DNA from: Planctomycetota bacterium
GTDB lineage: Bacteria; Planctomycetota; Phycisphaerae; Phycisphaerales; UBA1924
Length of the DNA: 64,000 bases
Direction: 5' to 3'
Assembly (NCBI GenBank): GCA_033763975.1
Contig: JANRJM010000006.1
Location: 124,001-188,000, forward strand
Under the pieces are notes generated by a model. The model searched no databases and had not been told where the DNA came from. It was given only the letters and a program-made list of their open reading frames with translations. A program made the position numbers and the translations under genes. Numbering within the stretch: position 1 is the first letter of the stretch; each line of letters starts with the position of its first letter. Shown one piece after another: positions 431-58,373 of the stretch.

Positions 431-1291
431 ATGCAGCACGGCGTTGTGTATTCCGCGAAGCCGACGCCCCTGCCGCGGCTCCTGAACCCGGTCGAGCCCT
501 GGCGGACGCTGTGGGTCCACCGTGACCTGCTGCGCCAGTTCGCGGTGCGGTACGTCCAGCAGCGCTACCGGGGCACGCACCTGGGCATGCTCTGGGCGAT
601 CATGCTCCCGCTGCTGATGCTGACCGTGTACGCGTTTGTCTTCAACTTCGTGCTCTCCGCCCGGTTCGGCACGGGCGGCGACGAACCCCGCTCGCACTAC
701 GTCGTCATGCTCTTCTGCGGGCTCACGGTCTACACCGTCTTTTCCGAGACCCTCGTCCGCTCGTGCTCCATCGTGCTCGAGAACCCCGCGTACGTGAAGA
801 AGGTCGTCTTCCCGGTGGAGATCCTCCCGCCCGCGCAGTTGGCGGCGTCGGCGATGGCGTCGCTCGTGGGCATCGTGCTCACCGTGATCGGCGTGTGGAT
901 GTTCGTGCGGACGCCCTCGTGGACGGTCGTGCTCTTCCCGATCGTCGTCGCGCCGCTGCTGCTGCTCACGCTCGGGATCGCGTGGTTCCTGGCGTCGCTG
1001 GGCGTGTTCGTGCGCGACGTCGCGAACATCGTCGGGCTGATCGTGGGGCAGATGCTCATCTTCCTGTCGCCGGTGTTCTTCAGCCTGTCGCAACTGCCCG
1101 AGCCCTGGCGCGGGGTGGCGTCGTGGAATCCGCTGTCGCCGATTCTGGACGGGGCGCGCAAGGTGCTGACCCGGGGGGAGATGCCCGACTGGGGCGCGCT
1201 GGGCGCGGTGGCGCTGCTGGGCCTGGTCGTGATGCAACTCGGGTACGCGTGGTTCATGAAGAGCAAGCGGGGCTTCGCCGATGTGCTCTGA
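431..1291 (+). CDS. wzm: ABC-2 type polysaccharide export permease (Wzm-like)
   Basis: A 286-aa integral membrane protein. An amphipathic N-terminus (residues 23-50, with QFAVRYVQQRYRGTHLG) precedes about six hydrophobic segments near 52-77, 90-108, 138-158, 168-190, 200-220 and 256-275. This is the usual architecture of Wzm/TagG permeases, which move lipid-linked O-antigen or other glycans across the inner membrane. The ATG at 431 is chosen over in-frame upstream codons because it begins the conserved N-terminal block and follows a GGAGGG sequence. The next gene, the matching ATPase, overlaps it by 11 nt, so the pair is translationally coupled. Confidence 0.88.
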   Translation: MQHGVVYSAKPTPLPRLLNPVEPWRTLWVHRDLLRQFAVRYVQQRYRGTHLGMLWAIMLPLLMLTVYAFVFNFVLSARFGTGGDEPRSHYVVMLFCGLTVYTVFSETLVRSCSIVLENPAYVKKVVFPVEILPPAQLAASAMASLVGIVLTVIGVWMFVRTPSWTVVLFPIVVAPLLLLTLGIAWFLASLGVFVRDVANIVGLIVGQMLIFLSPVFFSLSQLPEPWRGVASWNPLSPILDGARKVLTRGEMPDWGALGAVALLGLVVMQLGYAWFMKSKRGFADVL

Positions 1292-2618
1292 CGCCGCGCT
1301 GTGCGAGCCCGAAACGGCGCGCGTTCCCCCGGCCGGAGCGCGGGAAGTCGCGCTGGCCTGCCGCAACGTGGGGAAGGTGTACCAGATCTACGAGCGCCCT
1401 CAGGACCGGCTGAAGCAGGCGCTGCTGCGTTGGACGGGGCGCCGGTACTACCACGACTTCTGGGCGGTGCGCAACGTCTCGTTCGAGGTCGAGCGGGGCG
1501 AGTCGGTCGCGATCGTGGGTCGCAACGGCGCGGGCAAGAGCACGCTGCTGCAGATCATCGCGGGGACGATGGCGCCGACGCACGGCGAGGTCGAGGTGCG
1601 CGGGCGCGTGGCGGCGATGCTGCAGCTGGGCAGCGGGTTCAACCCGGAGTTCACGGGGCGCGAGAACGTGTACCTGAGCGGGGCGGTGCTGGGCATCTCG
1701 CGCGCCGAGATGCAGGCCCGCTTCGACGACGTGGCGGCGTTCGCGGACATCGGCGAGTTCCTCGACCAGCCGCTGAAGACCTACAGCAGCGGGATGCAGG
1801 CGCGCCTCGCGTTCGCGGTGTCGTTCAGCGTGGACCCGGACATCCTGATCGCCGACGAGGTGCTGGCGGTGGGCGACATCGGCTTCCAGCAGCGGTGCGT
1901 CGCGCGCCTGCGCCAGATGCGCGACCGCGGGCTCACGCTGCTGCTCGTCACGCACTCGCCCGACGCGGTGCGGAGCATCTGCCGGCGCGCGCTGCTGATG
2001 GACCACGGGCAGGCGGTCTTCTTCGGCGGGGCCGACGCCGCCGTCAACCAGTACCTCGCGTTTGTCCGCGAGGAGACCAACCGCGAGGCGCTCGAGGCCG
2101 ACGCGGGCGAATCGCTCCGCCCCGTCCCGTTCGCCGCGGATGTTCCCGGCAAGCTGCGCTACGGCACGGGGCAGGTGCAGTTCGAGCGGGTGCGCGTGCT
2201 CGACGCCTCGGGCGAGCCCCGGCGCGCCTTCGCGTTCGGCGACGAGATCGTCGTCGAGGCGCTCGTGCGGGCCCACGCCCCCGCGCGCCACCTCAACATG
2301 TCTTTCCTGCTGCGGGACATCACCGGAGTGGACCTCATGGGCACCACCACGTTTGACGAGCACGCGGAGCTGCCGGCGCTCGCGCCGGGCGACACGCTCA
2401 CCGTGCGGTTCCGGTTCGAGAATCGGCTGCGCGCGGGGAACTACGGCGTGTGCATGGCCGTCAACCGCGTCTCGCGGCGCGACTACGCCGACGTCGTCCT
2501 CTTCGACCAGGTCGACGGGTGCGCCGCGTTCGCGGTGATGCCCGACCCGTCGCGGCCGGTGCACTACAAGTTCCACCAGCCCGTCACCGTCGAGCACGCG
2601 CGGGAGGGCGGCGCATGA
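1281..2618 (+). CDS. wzt: ABC polysaccharide export ATPase (Wzt-like) with C-terminal glycan-binding domain
   Basis: A 445-aa ATPase. Walker A GRNGAGKST is at residues 80-88, a variant signature YSSGMQARL at 168-176, Walker B with the DE pair at 192-193, and the H-loop TH at 224-225. The SSGMQ signature is typical of the polysaccharide exporter subfamily. Residues ~290-435 form a beta-rich extension matching the Wzt C-terminal domain, which in O9a-type systems binds the capped end of the finished glycan. It overlaps the permease by 11 nt, and its stop codon overlaps the next start (ATGA), giving an operon. The extended C-terminus suggests that export requires a terminal modification, plausibly made by the adjacent methyltransferase. 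Confidence 0.88.
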   Translation: MCSDAALCEPETARVPPAGAREVALACRNVGKVYQIYERPQDRLKQALLRWTGRRYYHDFWAVRNVSFEVERGESVAIVGRNGAGKSTLLQIIAGTMAPTHGEVEVRGRVAAMLQLGSGFNPEFTGRENVYLSGAVLGISRAEMQARFDDVAAFADIGEFLDQPLKTYSSGMQARLAFAVSFSVDPDILIADEVLAVGDIGFQQRCVARLRQMRDRGLTLLLVTHSPDAVRSICRRALLMDHGQAVFFGGADAAVNQYLAFVREETNREALEADAGESLRPVPFAADVPGKLRYGTGQVQFERVRVLDASGEPRRAFAFGDEIVVEALVRAHAPARHLNMSFLLRDITGVDLMGTTTFDEHAELPALAPGDTLTVRFRFENRLRAGNYGVCMAVNRVSRRDYADVVLFDQVDGCAAFAVMPDPSRPVHYKFHQPVTVEHAREGGA

Positions 2619-3928
2619 GCGAGTCCGCGTCGCACACCCCCACACACGCCCCCGCCGGCGAGATCGCCCCCAACTACGCCTACTGGCGCGAGCACGGCGC
2701 CTCGTGGGAGGGCGAGTACCGCGCCCGCAAGACCTCGCAGGTGCTGTACCACATCCAGGAGATGATGCTCGCCTCGTACATGCTCCGCACCGCCGAGCGC
2801 AACGCGGGCGCGCTCCGCGTGCTCGAGTTCGGCTGCGGGCCGGGGCGACACCTCCGCAACCTCCGCGCGCTGCCCGGCGTCGAGCCCCACGGCTACGACC
2901 AGTCCGAGAGCATGACCCGCGGCGCGCTCGCCTGGTGCACGCCCGACTGGCTGGAGGCGCACGTCCGCGTGGGCGATCCCACCGGACGCCTGCCCTACGA
3001 CGACGACTCGTTCGACGTCGTCTACAGCACCGAGGTGCTCGTGCACGTCCGCCCGGATGACCTCGCGGGGATCCTGCGCGAACTGCTCCGCGTCGCGCGC
3101 CACCAGGTGCTGCACCTGGAGCCCACGCCGGGGATCGTCGTCGGCTCCGACATCCACGACGGCTGCTGGAACCACGACCTCGTGCGCGCGTACCGCGCGC
3201 TCGGGCACGAGTGCGAGGTGCTGCCCCGCGGGTACGAGGTGCACACGCCCTTCCGCGTGATGCTCGGCGGGGCCGCGCCCTACACCTGGCCCCGAGAGAT
3301 CCTCGACATGTGCCTGCGCATGGAGCGCGACATGAACGCCGGGCTGCGCGCCGCGGCCCAGCAGGCGACGGAAGCCGCCGTGGCGGGCGAGGCGCGGGTG
3401 CGCGACGTCGAACAGCGCCTGGGCGCCGCCGCGGACGAAGCCCGGGCGCGCGCGGGGATTCTGTCGGGCGAGCTCGAGGCCGCCCGCAACGCCCTCGCCG
3501 CCGAGAGCGCCGCGCGCGCGCAGGCCGCGGGCGACCTGGCCCGGGCGCTCGAGAAGAGCCTGGCGCTCGAACTGCTGCTCGACGAGCGGCAGACGCTGCT
3601 CGACAACGAACGGGCGGCGTTGGCGGAGGCGCGGGCGTCGCTCGACGAGGTCCGCGCCGCGCACGCCGCCGCGCTCGCCGCCGCCGAACGCCTCGACGCC
3701 GAGCGGCTGGCGGCGATCGACGGCCTGTCGCGTGCGCGAGAGCAGGCGGCCCGGGACGCGGGCCTCCACGCTACCATCGTCGCGTCGCTCCGCCACGACC
3801 TGCGCTCGGCGGGCGAGCGACTCGCGGCGTTGCGCGACGAACGCGCCAAGGCCGCGGACGCGACCAGAGCGCTGCACATGATCGTCAGCACAGCCACGGC
3901 GCGTCTGCGCCGCAGCGTCGAGGGATGA
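2615..3928 (+). CDS. SAM-dependent methyltransferase with long C-terminal coiled coil
   Basis: A 437-aa protein. Residues ~60-180 are a class I methyltransferase core, with motif I VLEFGCGPG at 69-77 and an acidic SFDVVYSTEVLVH block near 132-144. From ~232 to 430 the sequence is a nearly uninterrupted Ala/Glu/Arg/Leu-rich heptad region with no proline, a long coiled coil. The ATG at 2615 overlaps the stop of the ATPase gene. A methyltransferase joined to a coiled coil beside an exporter with a Wzt C-terminal domain recalls WbdD, where methylation ends O-antigen growth and the coiled coil measures chain length. No kinase domain is seen here. The terminator/ruler role is inference. Confidence 0.75.
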   Translation: MSESASHTPTHAPAGEIAPNYAYWREHGASWEGEYRARKTSQVLYHIQEMMLASYMLRTAERNAGALRVLEFGCGPGRHLRNLRALPGVEPHGYDQSESMTRGALAWCTPDWLEAHVRVGDPTGRLPYDDDSFDVVYSTEVLVHVRPDDLAGILRELLRVARHQVLHLEPTPGIVVGSDIHDGCWNHDLVRAYRALGHECEVLPRGYEVHTPFRVMLGGAAPYTWPREILDMCLRMERDMNAGLRAAAQQATEAAVAGEARVRDVEQRLGAAADEARARAGILSGELEAARNALAAESAARAQAAGDLARALEKSLALELLLDERQTLLDNERAALAEARASLDEVRAAHAAALAAAERLDAERLAAIDGLSRAREQAARDAGLHATIVASLRHDLRSAGERLAALRDERAKAADATRALHMIVSTATARLRRSVEG

Positions 3929-3967
3929 GCGTCGCCCGGTTGAGGGCGCGCGGCAAGGAGGGGTAGC

Positions 3968-6226
3968 GTGGGCACGAGCAACTGGCAGCAGATCCCCTTC
4001 TGCATCGAGGCGCTCATGAAGATGGCGCCCGAGCGCGTGCTCGATGTCGGCGTGGGCTTCGGGCGCTGGGGCATCATCACGCGCGAGTTCTGCGACGTCT
4101 GGTACTCGCGCATCTTCAAGGAAGACTGGAAGATCCACATCGAGGGGATCGAGGCCTTCCCCAAGTCGCTCAGCGCCTACCACCGCGAGTTCTACAACGT
4201 CATCCACACGGGCGACGCCGCCAAAGTCATCCCCACGCTCGCCGGGCCCTGGAGCGTCGTGATCTTCGGCGATGTGCTCGAGCACTTCGACAAGCCGACG
4301 GCCAACCGCCTGCTCGAGCACTGCCTCGCGCACAGCGAGTACGTGCTCGTGAACATACCCCTGGGCGAGGAGCACGAGCAGGGCGCCGCCTACGGCAACG
4401 AGTACGAGCGCCACCTGTCGTCGTGGGACATCCCCGATTTCGCCGGGCCCACGCTCGTGCGCCACGTCGAACTGCGCGACTACATCGGGCGCCCGTACGG
4501 CAGCTTCATCCTCTCGCGCGCCGACCCTAAGAACCTCCGCGCGGGGCTCTTCGCCCCCGTCAGCATCTACAACGACGACGAAGGCCTCGGCGCCGAACGC
4601 GACGAGCTCGAGCGGCTGCTCGACCGCGCGGGCGACCAGGCGTTTGAACTCTCGTTCATCAAGAACACCCGCCTCTACAAGGCCGGAACCCGGCTGCGGC
4701 GTTCCCCAGTCGGGCGCGTGCTCGCCAGGTCGTCGGAACGCACAGTGACGATCCGCGCCACGGGCACTCGCAACGCATCGTCGGGCGGGAGCGAGGTGTG
4801 GATTCTGCACGCCTCGGGCGCCGAGGGCGAGCGCAGCGTGCCGTGGGACTACGTCACGCGCGACCACGCCTGGTCGCTCCGCGACGACCCCGCGCGCCCG
4901 CACGGGAAGCACCTCGTGACGCAGGGCCCCGGCGAGGCGTTCATCAAGCTCGGCGACGATCCCGAGCTGCGCCTGCTCCGCCACCCCTGGAGCGGGAACG
5001 TCGAGATCGAGTTCCGCGGGCGGCGCGAGACGATCGACCTGTATCACCCCGTGGGCGATGTCATCCGCGTCTTCCCGGCGCGCACGCCGATGGCCCCCGC
5101 GCTCGACACGCCCCTGCCGGCCCCCACGCCGCGGCCTGCCGCCAGCACGGCGCACGCCAACGGGCACGCGCCGGCGGCTCCCGCGCCGTCGCCCGCGCGC
5201 GCGTTCTCCGACGTCGAGCGCGCGTTCATCGAGCGCGTCCGCGCCGCCTCGCCCGCGGCGATCGCCGTCACCTGCCCGCGCTACATGGGTGTCACGAGTT
5301 CCACCGTGAACCTCTTCGAGCACACCTACCTCGTGCCGGGCTCACGCGCCGACGACCCCGAAGCGCTCACCGAAGACGACCTGCGCCATCACGCGCGGGT
5401 GATCGTCGAGACGCGTGCGCCGCGCGTCGTGATCAGCGGCGGGGACCACCGCCAGCACCGCCTGATGCAGCTCGTACGCGAGGCCGCCCCGCGCGTGCGC
5501 TGCGATCTCTTCTTCCACGGCTCGTACCCGCAGTTCTCCGAAGACTACGTGTGGCAGATCTTCAAGATGTGGGTCGAGTCGGCGCGCCGCGGCGACGTCT
5601 ACTCCATCGCGAGCGACAAGTTCGGGTACGACCGCTTCGTGCGCTCCCTGGGCCTGCGGGGGCACGTGCTCCTCAACCGCATCGAGGGCCCCTTGCTGGA
5701 TGATCCGAACCTGCCCGATTCACCCCGGCACGTCGGGCTCTGGCTCAGCGGCACGACGTACCGCAAGCTCCCCCACGCGATGCTCGCGGCGCTCAAGATG
5801 ATGCCCGACACGCTCCTGCACGGCGCCGGGCTCGACGCCCGCTCGCGCGAGGTCATCGAGTTCCTCGACATCCCCACCGCGTTCGCGCAGGAGCGCCACC
5901 TGCCGCACGAGGAACTCTTCACGGCCATGCGGCGCACGCACCTCACGATGTACGTCACGTTCATCGAGTGCTGCCCGATGCTCCCGCTCGAGAGCCTGCA
6001 CCAGGGCGTGCCGGCCCTGACCGGGCCCAACAGCCACCTCTTCGACGACAACCCGTTCCTGTTCGAGCGCCTCGTCGTGCCCTTCCCCGACCGGGCCGAG
6101 GTGATCGCCGACTACGCCGAACGCGCGATCCGCGAACGCCGCGAGATCATCGCCGAGTATCAGCGGTACTGGCCGACGTACGACGCGCGGGCGAAGAACT
6201 CGGTCCGCGAGTTCCTGAACGGCTAA
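3968..6226 (+). CDS. Methyltransferase-glycosyltransferase fusion
   Basis: A 752-aa multidomain protein starting at GTG 3968, with AAGGAGG at 3955-3961 placed 6 nt upstream. Residues ~20-175 are a class I methyltransferase (VLDVGVGFGRWG at 24-35, FGDVLEHFDKP near 100-110, LVNIPLGEEHEQG near 127-139). Residues ~265-355 look like a small beta domain of unknown role. An Ala/Pro-rich linker follows (~368-410). Residues ~415-752 resemble a GT-B-like glycosyltransferase half, with HLTMYVTFIECCPMLPLESL near its end. It lies 39 nt after the coiled-coil methyltransferase and probably belongs to the same operon. The acceptor cannot be told from sequence, and the glycosyltransferase call rests on fold-like pattern only. 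Confidence 0.65.
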   Translation: MGTSNWQQIPFCIEALMKMAPERVLDVGVGFGRWGIITREFCDVWYSRIFKEDWKIHIEGIEAFPKSLSAYHREFYNVIHTGDAAKVIPTLAGPWSVVIFGDVLEHFDKPTANRLLEHCLAHSEYVLVNIPLGEEHEQGAAYGNEYERHLSSWDIPDFAGPTLVRHVELRDYIGRPYGSFILSRADPKNLRAGLFAPVSIYNDDEGLGAERDELERLLDRAGDQAFELSFIKNTRLYKAGTRLRRSPVGRVLARSSERTVTIRATGTRNASSGGSEVWILHASGAEGERSVPWDYVTRDHAWSLRDDPARPHGKHLVTQGPGEAFIKLGDDPELRLLRHPWSGNVEIEFRGRRETIDLYHPVGDVIRVFPARTPMAPALDTPLPAPTPRPAASTAHANGHAPAAPAPSPARAFSDVERAFIERVRAASPAAIAVTCPRYMGVTSSTVNLFEHTYLVPGSRADDPEALTEDDLRHHARVIVETRAPRVVISGGDHRQHRLMQLVREAAPRVRCDLFFHGSYPQFSEDYVWQIFKMWVESARRGDVYSIASDKFGYDRFVRSLGLRGHVLLNRIEGPLLDDPNLPDSPRHVGLWLSGTTYRKLPHAMLAALKMMPDTLLHGAGLDARSREVIEFLDIPTAFAQERHLPHEELFTAMRRTHLTMYVTFIECCPMLPLESLHQGVPALTGPNSHLFDDNPFLFERLVVPFPDRAEVIADYAERAIRERREIIAEYQRYWPTYDARAKNSVREFLNG

Positions 6227-28694: not shown

Positions 28695-28794
28695 CACATG
28701 GCCACAGCGCCACAGGGCCGCGACTCCGCATCGCCACATGGCCCCAGCGCCAAAGGGCCGTGCCTCCGCATCGCCACATGGCCCCAGCGCCACA
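28695..28794. repeat. 40-bp tandem repeat, about 2.5 copies
   Basis: Copies begin at 28695, 28735 and 28775, each opening with CACATGGCC and sharing CAGCGCCA and CTCCGCATCGC blocks. The copies differ by a few substitutions. There are no unique spacers between them. Confidence 0.8.
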
Positions 28795-28825
28795 TCCAAA
28801 GCCCCGCGGTGCGGCGTTCCACTCC

Positions 28826-28927
28826 GGAACTCCGTTACTTCGGAACTCAGGAACTCCGGAACTTCGGAACTTCCTCACTCCGGAACTTCGTTACTTCGGA
28901 ACTTCGGAACTTCCTGACGGAACTTCC
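28826..28927. repeat. GGAAC-rich short tandem repeat array
   Basis: Nine copies of GGAACT(T/C) within ~100 bp, with spacings near 8-10 or 15-16 bp and a higher-order duplication of about 45 bp. The last codons and the TAA of the nitroreductase gene (from 28891) lie inside the array. Confidence 0.75.
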
Positions 28928-44402: not shown

Positions 44403-45386
44403 ATGGCGGGAACCAGCATCTCCATCGTCGACGCGATCGTCCTCGGCCTGGTCGAGGGCATCACCGAGTACCTCCCGGTCTCGTCCACCGGGCACCTCAT
44501 CCTCGCGTCGTCGCTGCTGGGGCTCAACACCCCGGAGCGCGAGTCCGCGGTGAACGCGTTCACGATCGTCGTGCAGGGCGGCGCGATCCTGGCGGTGCTG
44601 GGCCTCTACTGGGACAACGTCTGGAAGATGGCCAAGGGCGCCATCGGTCGCGACAACTCCGGGTTCCGGTTGCTGGTGAACCTCGTGGTCGCGTTCATCC
44701 CCGCGGCGGTCCTGGGAAAACTGCTCGACGATCACATCGAGCGCGTGCTCTTCCACCCGGTGCCGGTGCTGCTCGCGCTGGGCGTCGGGGGCGTGTTCAT
44801 GATCGTGCTGCACCTGCGCCTCGCCGGACGCTGGGGGCCGCCCGTCCCCTCGCTCGCGCGCAAGGAACTCGCCGACCTGACGCTCACCGAGGCGCTGATC
44901 ATCGGCCTGCTGCAGTGCGTCGCGATGTGGCCCGGCACAAGCCGCTCGATGATGACCATCTCGGGCGGGCTGCTGGTGGGCCTCAAGCCCAAGGCCGCCG
45001 CCGAGTTCAGCTTCCTGCTGGGCCTGCCCACCCTCACCGCCGCGACGCTGTACGTGCTGGGCAAGGACCTGTACACCGCGAACTCGACCGGCGCGCCCTC
45101 GATGTTCGACACGCTGGGCTGGCTGCCCATCGCGGTGGGCATCGGCGTAGCAACCGTCTCGGCGGCCCTGGCCGTCCGCTGGCTCGTGGGGTTCCTGGCC
45201 CGTCGCGGGCTGGCGGCGTTCGGCTGGTACCGCCTGGCGCTGTGCGCCGTCCTGGCGGGGCTCTGGGCCGCCGGGATCGTCACGATCGGCGCCCACGGGC
45301 GCGAAGTGAACGAAACCCAGCGCGAGGTCCCGCCGATAGAGTGGTCGCCCGCGAGCGGCACTCCCGCCGGCTCCCCGCGCCCATGA
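44403..45386 (+). CDS. uppP: Undecaprenyl-diphosphatase
   Basis: A 327-aa membrane protein that dephosphorylates undecaprenyl pyrophosphate to recycle the lipid carrier for peptidoglycan and surface glycans. Motif 1 GLVEGITEYLPVSSTGHLIL is at ~14-33 and motif 2 WPGTSRSMMTISGG near 178-191. There are about eight hydrophobic segments. The C-terminus adds a ~35-residue hydrophilic tail (from GAHGREVNE). TACCGT ends 8 nt before the ATG and there is no Shine-Dalgarno sequence. Its stop overlaps the serA start (ATGA), coupling two unrelated functions. Confidence 0.95.
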   Translation: MAGTSISIVDAIVLGLVEGITEYLPVSSTGHLILASSLLGLNTPERESAVNAFTIVVQGGAILAVLGLYWDNVWKMAKGAIGRDNSGFRLLVNLVVAFIPAAVLGKLLDDHIERVLFHPVPVLLALGVGGVFMIVLHLRLAGRWGPPVPSLARKELADLTLTEALIIGLLQCVAMWPGTSRSMMTISGGLLVGLKPKAAAEFSFLLGLPTLTAATLYVLGKDLYTANSTGAPSMFDTLGWLPIAVGIGVATVSAALAVRWLVGFLARRGLAAFGWYRLALCAVLAGLWAAGIVTIGAHGREVNETQREVPPIEWSPASGTPAGSPRP

Positions 45387-46834
45387 AGACCTCCTTTCCC
45401 AAGAGCAAGATCTCCGTGCTCCTGCTCGAGAGCGTCCACCCCGCCGGCGTCGCCGCGCTCGAGGCCGAGGGATTCCAGGTCCAGGCCCTGCCGGGCGCGC
45501 CGGACGAAGCCAAGCTCTGCCGCCTGGTGGAGAACGTCCATCTGCTGGGCCTGCGGAGCAAGACCGAGGTCACCCCGCGGGTGCTCGACGCCGCCCCCAA
45601 GCTCCTGGCCGTCGGCTGCTTTTGCATCGGCACGAACCAGGTCGCGCTCCGCGACGCGTGCCGCCGGGGCGTGCCGGTGTTCAACTCGCCCTTCAGCAAC
45701 ACCCGCTCGGTCGCCGAGCTCACCATCGCCGAGATCATCGCGCTGTACCGGCGTCTCACCGAGAAGTCCGACCTCATGCACCGGGGCGTGTGGGACAAAT
45801 CCGCCGCCGGCGCCCACGAGGTTCGCGGGCGCACCCTCGGCATCGTCGGCTACGGGCACATCGGCTCGCAGGTGTCCGTCCTCGCCGAGGCACTGGGCAT
45901 GCGCGTGCTGTACCACGACATCATCGCCAAGATGCCCCTGGGCAACGCCCGCCAGGTGAAGTCACTCGCCGACCTGCTCAAAGAGTCCGACGTCGTCACG
46001 CTGCACGTGCCCGCGACGCGCCAGACCGAGGGGCTGATCGCCGCACCACAACTCAAGCGCATGAAGCCCGGCGCGTACCTCATCAACAACGCCCGGGGCG
46101 GCGTCGTCGACATCACCGCCCTCGCCGCCGCGCTCACTTCCGGGCACCTCGCCGGAGCGGCGCTGGATGTCTTCCCGGTCGAGCCGAGCGCCAAGGGCGA
46201 ATCGTTCGAGAGCCCGCTGCGGGGGCTGGCGAACGTCATCCTCACGCCGCACGTCGGCGGCAGCACCGAAGAGGCGCAGGCGTCGATCGCCGAAGACGTC
46301 GCGTCGAAGTTCATCAAGTTCATCAACGTCGGCACGACCACCGGGGCCGTCAATGTGCCCGAGGTCGAACTGCCCGAGCAGACGTCCGCGAGTACGGGTT
46401 TCCCGGCCTCGGGTACCTCCGCACTCCGTGCGGGGTCTGGTTCGGGTCCGGATGCCTCCGCACTCCGTGCGGGGTCTGGTTCGGGTCCGGATATCTCCGC
46501 ACGCCGTGCGGGGTCTGGTTCGGGTCCGGATGCCTCCGCACTCCGTGCGGGGTCTGGTTCGGGTCCGGCTACCCACGCACGCCGTGCCGGGTCTGAATCC
46601 CCTGCGTTCACCCGCCCCCACCGCATCCTGCACTTCCACCGCAACGTTCCTGGCGTGCTCTCCAAGATGCACGCCATGATCGCCGACCTCGGCGCGAACA
46701 TCTCGGCCGAGTACCTCCGCACCACCGACGACATCGGCTACGTCGTCCTCGACGTCGACCCCACCGACGGCAAGCAGGTCCTCGCGCGCCTCCGCGACAT
46801 CCCCGAAACCATCCGCGTCCGCATGCTGTGGTGA
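45383..46834 (+). CDS. serA: D-3-phosphoglycerate dehydrogenase with in-frame repeat insertion
   Basis: A 483-aa enzyme for the first step of serine synthesis. The NAD-binding GYGHIGS is at 156-162, catalytic Arg in NARGG near 238, Glu near 267 and His290 in TPHVGGS. The ACT domain (residues ~412-483, RILHFHRNVPGVLSKM to RMLW) is like that of the 410-aa E. coli enzyme. Between VNVPEVELPEQ (~334) and the ACT domain lies a ~75-residue insertion made of 13-residue units (SALRAGSGSGPDA), encoded by a 39-bp tandem repeat. All catalytic residues and the ACT domain are intact, so the enzyme is probably active with an unusual flexible hinge. Confidence 0.95.
   Translation: MKTSFPKSKISVLLLESVHPAGVAALEAEGFQVQALPGAPDEAKLCRLVENVHLLGLRSKTEVTPRVLDAAPKLLAVGCFCIGTNQVALRDACRRGVPVFNSPFSNTRSVAELTIAEIIALYRRLTEKSDLMHRGVWDKSAAGAHEVRGRTLGIVGYGHIGSQVSVLAEALGMRVLYHDIIAKMPLGNARQVKSLADLLKESDVVTLHVPATRQTEGLIAAPQLKRMKPGAYLINNARGGVVDITALAAALTSGHLAGAALDVFPVEPSAKGESFESPLRGLANVILTPHVGGSTEEAQASIAEDVASKFIKFINVGTTTGAVNVPEVELPEQTSASTGFPASGTSALRAGSGSGPDASALRAGSGSGPDISARRAGSGSGPDASALRAGSGSGPATHARRAGSESPAFTRPHRILHFHRNVPGVLSKMHAMIADLGANISAEYLRTTDDIGYVVLDVDPTDGKQVLARLRDIPETIRVRMLW
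46417..46597 (+). repeat. 39-bp tandem repeat inside serA
   Basis: Unit starts at 46417, 46456, 46495 and 46534, exactly 39 bp apart; a degenerate fifth copy starts at 46573. Each unit contains an inverted repeat CCGCAC-TCC-GTGCGG (or CCGCAC-GCC-GTGCGG) followed by GGTCTGGTTCGGGTCCGG. The period is a multiple of three, so the frame is kept. Confidence 0.95.

Positions 46835-58288: not shown

Positions 58289-58373
<85 letters not shown>

Follow-up and report, generated by a model that had tools for sequence, protein, structure and literature searches.

An in-frame REP-type array in a planctomycetal serA gene and putative transposases embedded in essential enzymes

The serA gene and its tandem array

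The window (the whole 64,000-nucleotide stretch analysed, whose positions equal those on contig C6 minus 124000) belongs to a draft genome of 3.27 Mb in 19 contigs, the one genome that represents its species. The gene serA lies on its forward strand (45383..46834, with an ATG at 45383 and a stop codon ending at 46834; 483 aa plus stop) and was assigned to phosphoglycerate dehydrogenase from its ORF, Pfam and NCBIfam, with 581.7 bits against the NCBIfam phosphoglycerate dehydrogenase model PRK11790 (cut-off 404). Pfam ordered the protein as 2-Hacid_dh and 2-Hacid_dh_C, followed by a repeat array and then an ACT-type domain (ACT_AHAS_ss). Against PDB 27ws, the catalytic part (45398..46378, forward strand; query residues 6-332) aligned with chain residues 1-328 and the ACT domain (46613..46828, forward strand; query residues 411-482), which Pfam also found, with chain residues 331-402. 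Matches stopped at chain residue 328 (query 332) and resumed at 331 (query 411), and since the two matched parts adjoin at 328/331, SerA carries ~78 extra residues where 27ws has 2.

Tandem Repeats Finder placed a 39-bp tandem array of 4.8 copies at 46410..46595 on the forward strand, with 90% matches and a score of 302, the highest of its 20 rows in the window. The array stays in frame, and Tandem Repeats Finder, the ORF and Pfam agree with the original prediction that about five 39-bp units stand between the catalytic and ACT domains. The same program also reported a 40-bp repeat of 2.5 copies and an 8-bp repeat of 11.6 copies (28695-28794 and 28821-28913), and a run of ~28 GA dinucleotides at 58318-58373.

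The tandem arrangement itself stood, while the details of the copies needed correction: the first copy starts with GGGTACC at 46411, and the degenerate copy is the fifth. This first copy is a complete palindromic unit (46411..46437, forward strand) made up of GGGTACC, a 7-bp stem, a TCC loop and the returning stem. The palindrome search located the cores of the second (46453..46474, which is 170453-170474 on contig C6), third (46492..46513) and fourth (46531..46552) copies, and the degenerate core of the fifth (46570..46591) was recovered by both the pattern and the palindrome searches, all on the forward strand. Folded as single-stranded DNA, the first 27-nt unit gave -8.3 kcal/mol with a z of -3.39, and the second unit, taken as the whole 39 nt, did no better than z -1.36. 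The value for the first unit, together with the dispersed palindrome family described below, bears out the claim that the unit is hairpin-forming and of REP type.

Orthologues of serA had their catalytic and ACT matches 0-39 bases apart in every genome where both were located. The array was absent, among the matches listed, from the orthologues of the 15 other genomes with both domains located (G001-G006, G015, G017, G034, G581, G606, G640, G715, G750 and G434); G435 and G030 fell outside this comparison, their SerA having no close match.

A dispersed family of palindromes in core genes

The unit of serA turned out to be one member of a family. Allowing up to 2 mismatches, the pattern TACCCCCRCACNCCGTGYGGGG matched 23 times in the window's genome, with 0 for the reversed control, and one match each in 2 of 60 relatives. 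A wider palindrome pattern gave 42 matches in the window's genome (control 11), 87 in Phycisphaeraceae bacterium 42896_E15 (G434; control 2) and 24 in Phycisphaerales bacterium SJ233 (G435; control 9); for the window's genome, chance-like 2-mismatch rows were left out as copies, and the sites described here are those among the matches listed. The original prediction had suggested looking for the 39-bp unit elsewhere in the genome, where it is indeed present and dispersed, including a second 39-bp array in ligA. That the serA array is a chance repeat or an assembly artefact is barely credible, even though the genome is a draft in 19 contigs: TCCGCACNCCGTGCGGGGTCTG had 5 matches at up to 3 mismatches in the window, every one within the serA array, against 0.01 expected from shuffles, and the family lies on several contigs and recurs in two other, independently assembled genomes.

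The exact form is narrowly distributed. At up to 1 mismatch the palindrome was found, among the matches listed, in the window's genome alone of the 392 in the phylum sample, and a wide spread of the exact palindrome was rejected. An exact scan of genome contigs returned 14 stretches. Two Phycisphaerales genomes accounted for 9 of these; the remaining 5 (three Streptomyces, one Pseudonocardia and one uncultured) had no GGGTA tag and were taken as chance, and 3 of the 6 stretches in SJ233 likewise had none. The exact scan of viral contigs for the palindrome core gave 0 hits. The tags themselves varied between genomes, being GGGTACC in the window's genome, GGGTAGC in G004 and GGGTGGC in G034 and G581. 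Across species, 99.2% of stem cells paired and both sides had changed in 32 cells, compared with 7.5 in shuffles; the rows had been preselected for pairing at 6 or more of 7 positions, and this covariation is therefore better evidence of varied stems than of pairing itself.

Eight palindrome sites in the window's genome, among the matches listed, lie in frame in seven core genes identified by Pfam: serA, ligA (twice, one of the two being the further 39-bp array), leuS, kynU (kynureninase), uvrA, valS and a carboxyltransferase. Five clusters fall outside these in-frame sites, one of them near a possible gene start, so that 8 of 13 clusters are in frame and the family is not mostly intergenic. 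The spacing between neighbouring copies was a multiple of 3 in 11 of 11 cases inside genes but in 0 of 3 within the single intergenic cluster; it should be kept in mind that tandem-duplicated copies are not independent. The openness of six reading frames was also considered as a sign of selection and rejected, since 30-mers that are shuffled or taken from the window are equally open in about half of cases.

These positions bear on what the repeat does in serA. A linker specific to serA, in which slippage alters the copy number and thereby sets serine feedback through the ACT domain, was the function originally proposed, and a near-perfect tandem repeat with a period that is a multiple of 3, adjoining an ACT domain, is what it would look like. 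The same element, however, lies in frame in six further, unrelated core genes, forms another 39-bp array in ligA and does not occur in serA of the 15 other genomes (among the matches listed), and such tuning is accordingly unsupported and highly improbable. It is slightly less improbable, though still unlikely, that the palindromes are chiefly RNA or DNA signals, such as mRNA hairpins, pausing or supercoiling sites, and that their coding is incidental. They do fold as hairpins, and roles of this sort are described for REPs in passages of PMC3733652, but across the eight in-frame sites the element may run with the host gene or against it, which does not suggest a single signal.

By kind, the serA array is an in-frame REP array. 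It shares with REPs a hairpin-capable palindrome (in rows preselected for pairing), dispersed copies, modest in number here, and an associated RAYT lying between copies of the same palindromes in an insert of leuS. Very probably, judging from sequence, serA received in frame a REP-type palindrome belonging to a RAYT/REP system whose transposase sits inside leuS, and this palindrome was multiplied into tandem 39-bp (13-codon) units at a tolerant interdomain linker. Here the RAYT would cut and spread the palindromes on single-stranded DNA, selection would remove insertions that break the frame of core genes, the serA array would have grown in tandem by slippage or recombination, and the longer SerA linker would be tolerated as near neutral.

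RAYT domains inside leuS and other essential genes

The leuS ORF (446-4180 of locus L009, contig C5 of the window's genome) encodes 1244 aa and matched both leuS_bact (935.8 bits, cut-off 548.4) and REP_Tyr_transpos (86.0, cut-off 80). Its in-frame insert, a RAYT with HUH and catalytic Tyr, was the only RAYT match found in the window's genome; it scored 25.6 against Pfam Y1_Tnp (cut-off 23), matched the solved TnpArep 4er8 (E 2.2e-5) and stands where the editing domain begins, between positions equivalent to residues 236 and 242 of 1h3n. Palindromes of the serA type flank it in inverted orientation on both sides, and SJ233 has a LeuRS-embedded RAYT with flanking palindromes arranged in the same way. 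Contamination was rejected as the origin of this contig: the LeuRS part ahead of the insert is 78.7% identical to a LeuRS of the same genus, and the contig was therefore treated as the genome's own. Among 61 genomes sampled, LeuRS carried a RAYT-size insert (~590-700 bases) in 6 and at most ~100 extra bases in 54, with 1 that could not be judged. Of the 6 carriers, 5 yielded no second LeuRS; the window's genome has the N-terminal half of a divergent second one, cut by a contig end (L212, contig C13; at most ~56% identity to any), so the LeuRS with the RAYT may be one of two in this genome.

A set of 400 Phycisphaerales genomes (in which G474, with one of the loci counted below, is SJ233 again and G491 is 42896_E15) was screened with an alignment built from 19 embedded RAYTs. 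There were 92 matches at 1e-15, and a strong set was defined as the 81 at E 5e-42 or better, the next match having 8e-33; ORFs with the weaker matches were of ~120-415 residues. In 75 of the 81 the RAYT lies in frame in a recognisable core gene, the host being identified by Pfam in some cases and otherwise by BLAST against the Pfam-assigned ones: ValRS in 37, RdgB in 19, LeuRS in 16, and MiaA, Hsp70 and a class I/II aminotransferase (by eye, 2-amino-3-ketobutyrate CoA ligase) in 1 each. Host sequence was present on both sides in 72 of these and 3 were cut by a contig end, while the remaining strong loci comprised 2 unclassed ones (one partly N) and 4 with no recognised host, one of which starts at a contig end. 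Most of the genomes are draft assemblies, but embedded RAYTs also occur in the single-contig genomes G456, G462 and G691, which again argues against an assembly artefact.

The insert positions were defined for the other main hosts as well. In ValRS the insert corresponds to residues 363-377 of 1gax, and in RdgB it falls between residues 133 and 146 of 6wwd. This RdgB protein scores below the NCBI cut-offs for its own family, and the MiaA and ValRS hosts are not below theirs. Against REP_Tyr_transpos (cut-off 80) the RdgB insert of G017 reached 87.3, with the ValRS insert of G462 (78.2) and the MiaA insert of G004 (76.1) just under. In the LeuRS clade (18 loci), GGGT[AG][CG]C palindromes accompany the RAYT in 11, forming an inverted pair in 10 of these; 6 loci are without this palindrome, and in 1 a lone copy lies apart from the insert. 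Another palindrome was seen by eye beside the LeuRS-clade RAYT of G001, G017 and G013. At the RAYT position of ValRS, the valS genes of G004, G043, G044 and G047 (L194, L201, L202 and L203; three families) hold a different Y1 transposase, which the RAYT profile misses and for which Pfam confirmed Y1_Tnp in two of the four; it resembles class 3 as outlined in passages of PMC6006769.

Across the phylum sample, RAYT matches at 1e-20 were present in 69 of the 392 genomes. All 19 long-ORF cases outside Phycisphaerales contained the RAYT domain, and the seven that were scanned with Pfam gave AlaRS in three genomes, PurH, a FabA-like dehydratase (matched on one side of the RAYT only) and two Eco57I-type methylases; some of the other 12 look stand-alone. 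The methylase cases are L343 and L348 (G129 and G225), in which a Y1 transposase domain lies inside an Eco57I-type restriction-modification methylase, and L344, L346 and L347 appeared similar by eye. The scanned proteins showed no splicing domain in their Pfam matches (E 0.001), and the insert presumably remains in the mature host enzyme.

Selection, movement and comparison with known elements

The RAYT is under purifying selection in the six pairs tested (four independent sets), with a dN/dS of 0.08-0.20. In the alignment, HUH was kept in 19 of 19 embedded RAYTs and the catalytic Tyr in 18 of 19. Ser replaces the Tyr in the valS RAYT of G008 (L195), and the valS RAYT of G746 (L264) has lost one HUH histidine. 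A rapidly built tree of 81 RAYTs, many of whose forks are weak, required 12 changes of host label compared with 39.1 in shuffles, and RAYTs therefore mostly stay in their host gene.

One valS pair was informative about movement. In G462 and G642 (one genus; L304 and L305) the RAYT had a pS of 0.009 within ValRS ORFs of pS 0.393, and almost all 60-base windows between the left palindrome and a point ~130 bases past the right one showed 100% identity. Outside that span the valS windows ranged from ~25% to 100%, with some stretches above 88%, which makes this locus a mosaic. The pattern suggests recent lateral movement of the RAYT, which may have been through transposition or recombination. L291/L294 agreed with this direction more weakly, and L287/L290 showed the opposite.

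It is possible, though I consider it rather doubtful, that the embedded RAYTs are domesticated or dying relics of an ancient spread whose movement is over. The grouping by host gene suggests long residence, and the lost catalytic residues in G008 and G746 point the same way, but the low dN/dS argues against decay, as does the G462/G642 pair, with the reservation that at a mosaic locus recombination could have carried the RAYT. About as likely as not is a broader proposal, namely that Planctomycetota hold a class of RAYTs at home in essential proteins (ValRS, LeuRS, RdgB, AlaRS and others), where the RAYT would be a translated domain, selected to stay intact, that moves laterally to the same conserved sites, as an intein does but without splicing, and seeds palindromes in frame into core genes such as serA. 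Residence inside essential genes would give such RAYTs expression and protection from loss.

Palindromes placed in frame in unrelated genes, where they form linkers in essential proteins, are familiar from the Rickettsia palindromic elements. In-frame placement in unrelated genes is common to both, and the two are likened by placement and not by sequence; here, in contrast, a transposase accompanies the palindromes. Inteins with homing endonucleases likewise insert an enzyme that cuts DNA into conserved positions of essential genes, keeping the reading frame, and are patchy in relatives. The embedded RAYT would resemble them as a putative DNA-cutting enzyme in frame at a conserved essential-gene site with a patchy distribution, whereas its scanned hosts showed no splicing domain among their Pfam matches.

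In-frame REPs in core genes are already known: passages of PMC3733652 describe tagged REPs (GTAG, CGTC) in frame in genes such as those for DNA ligase, uvrA and tRNA synthetases, with grouped intragenic repeats that code for 43-82 residues. Being short tagged palindromes in frame, the arrays of serA and ligA belong to that kind. Differences were also apparent, in that the tag is GTAG in the passages concerned of PMC3733652 and PMC8266576 and mostly GGGTAC here, and REPs are said in PMC3733652 to be mostly intergenic while 8 of 13 clusters are in frame here. With RAYT/TnpAREP and the REPtron, as treated in parts of PMC8266576 and PMC6006769, the present system shares HUH and Tyr, inverted flanking REPs, REP_Tyr_transpos and the match to 4er8. 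The RAYT there has its own gene, however, and here it lies in frame inside LeuRS, ValRS, RdgB and others; the transposase section of PMC3733652 mentions no RAYT inside a host gene.

What appears new is thus a putative transposase family residing inside essential enzymes, which was reached from the serA array. Searches of open PubMed Central texts turned up no description of RAYTs within essential genes, and with coverage limited to those texts, priority is not established. Annotation tends to hide embedded RAYTs, as the proteins take the name of the host enzyme, and according to a passage of PMC6006769, unexpectedly long family members were discarded as gene fusions or annotation errors. RAYTs are puzzling as transposases: they resemble housekeeping genes more than transposase genes in their behaviour, as part of PMC8266576 has it. 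If the proposal is true, residence in an essential enzyme would explain both the expression and the persistence of RAYTs, the latter because loss or a frameshift is not tolerated inside such an enzyme. The embedded RAYTs would then also provide a natural series of enzymes in which defined sites are occupied by a folded guest domain of ~150-250 residues, and the RAYT palindromes would be one source of low-complexity linkers in bacterial proteins.
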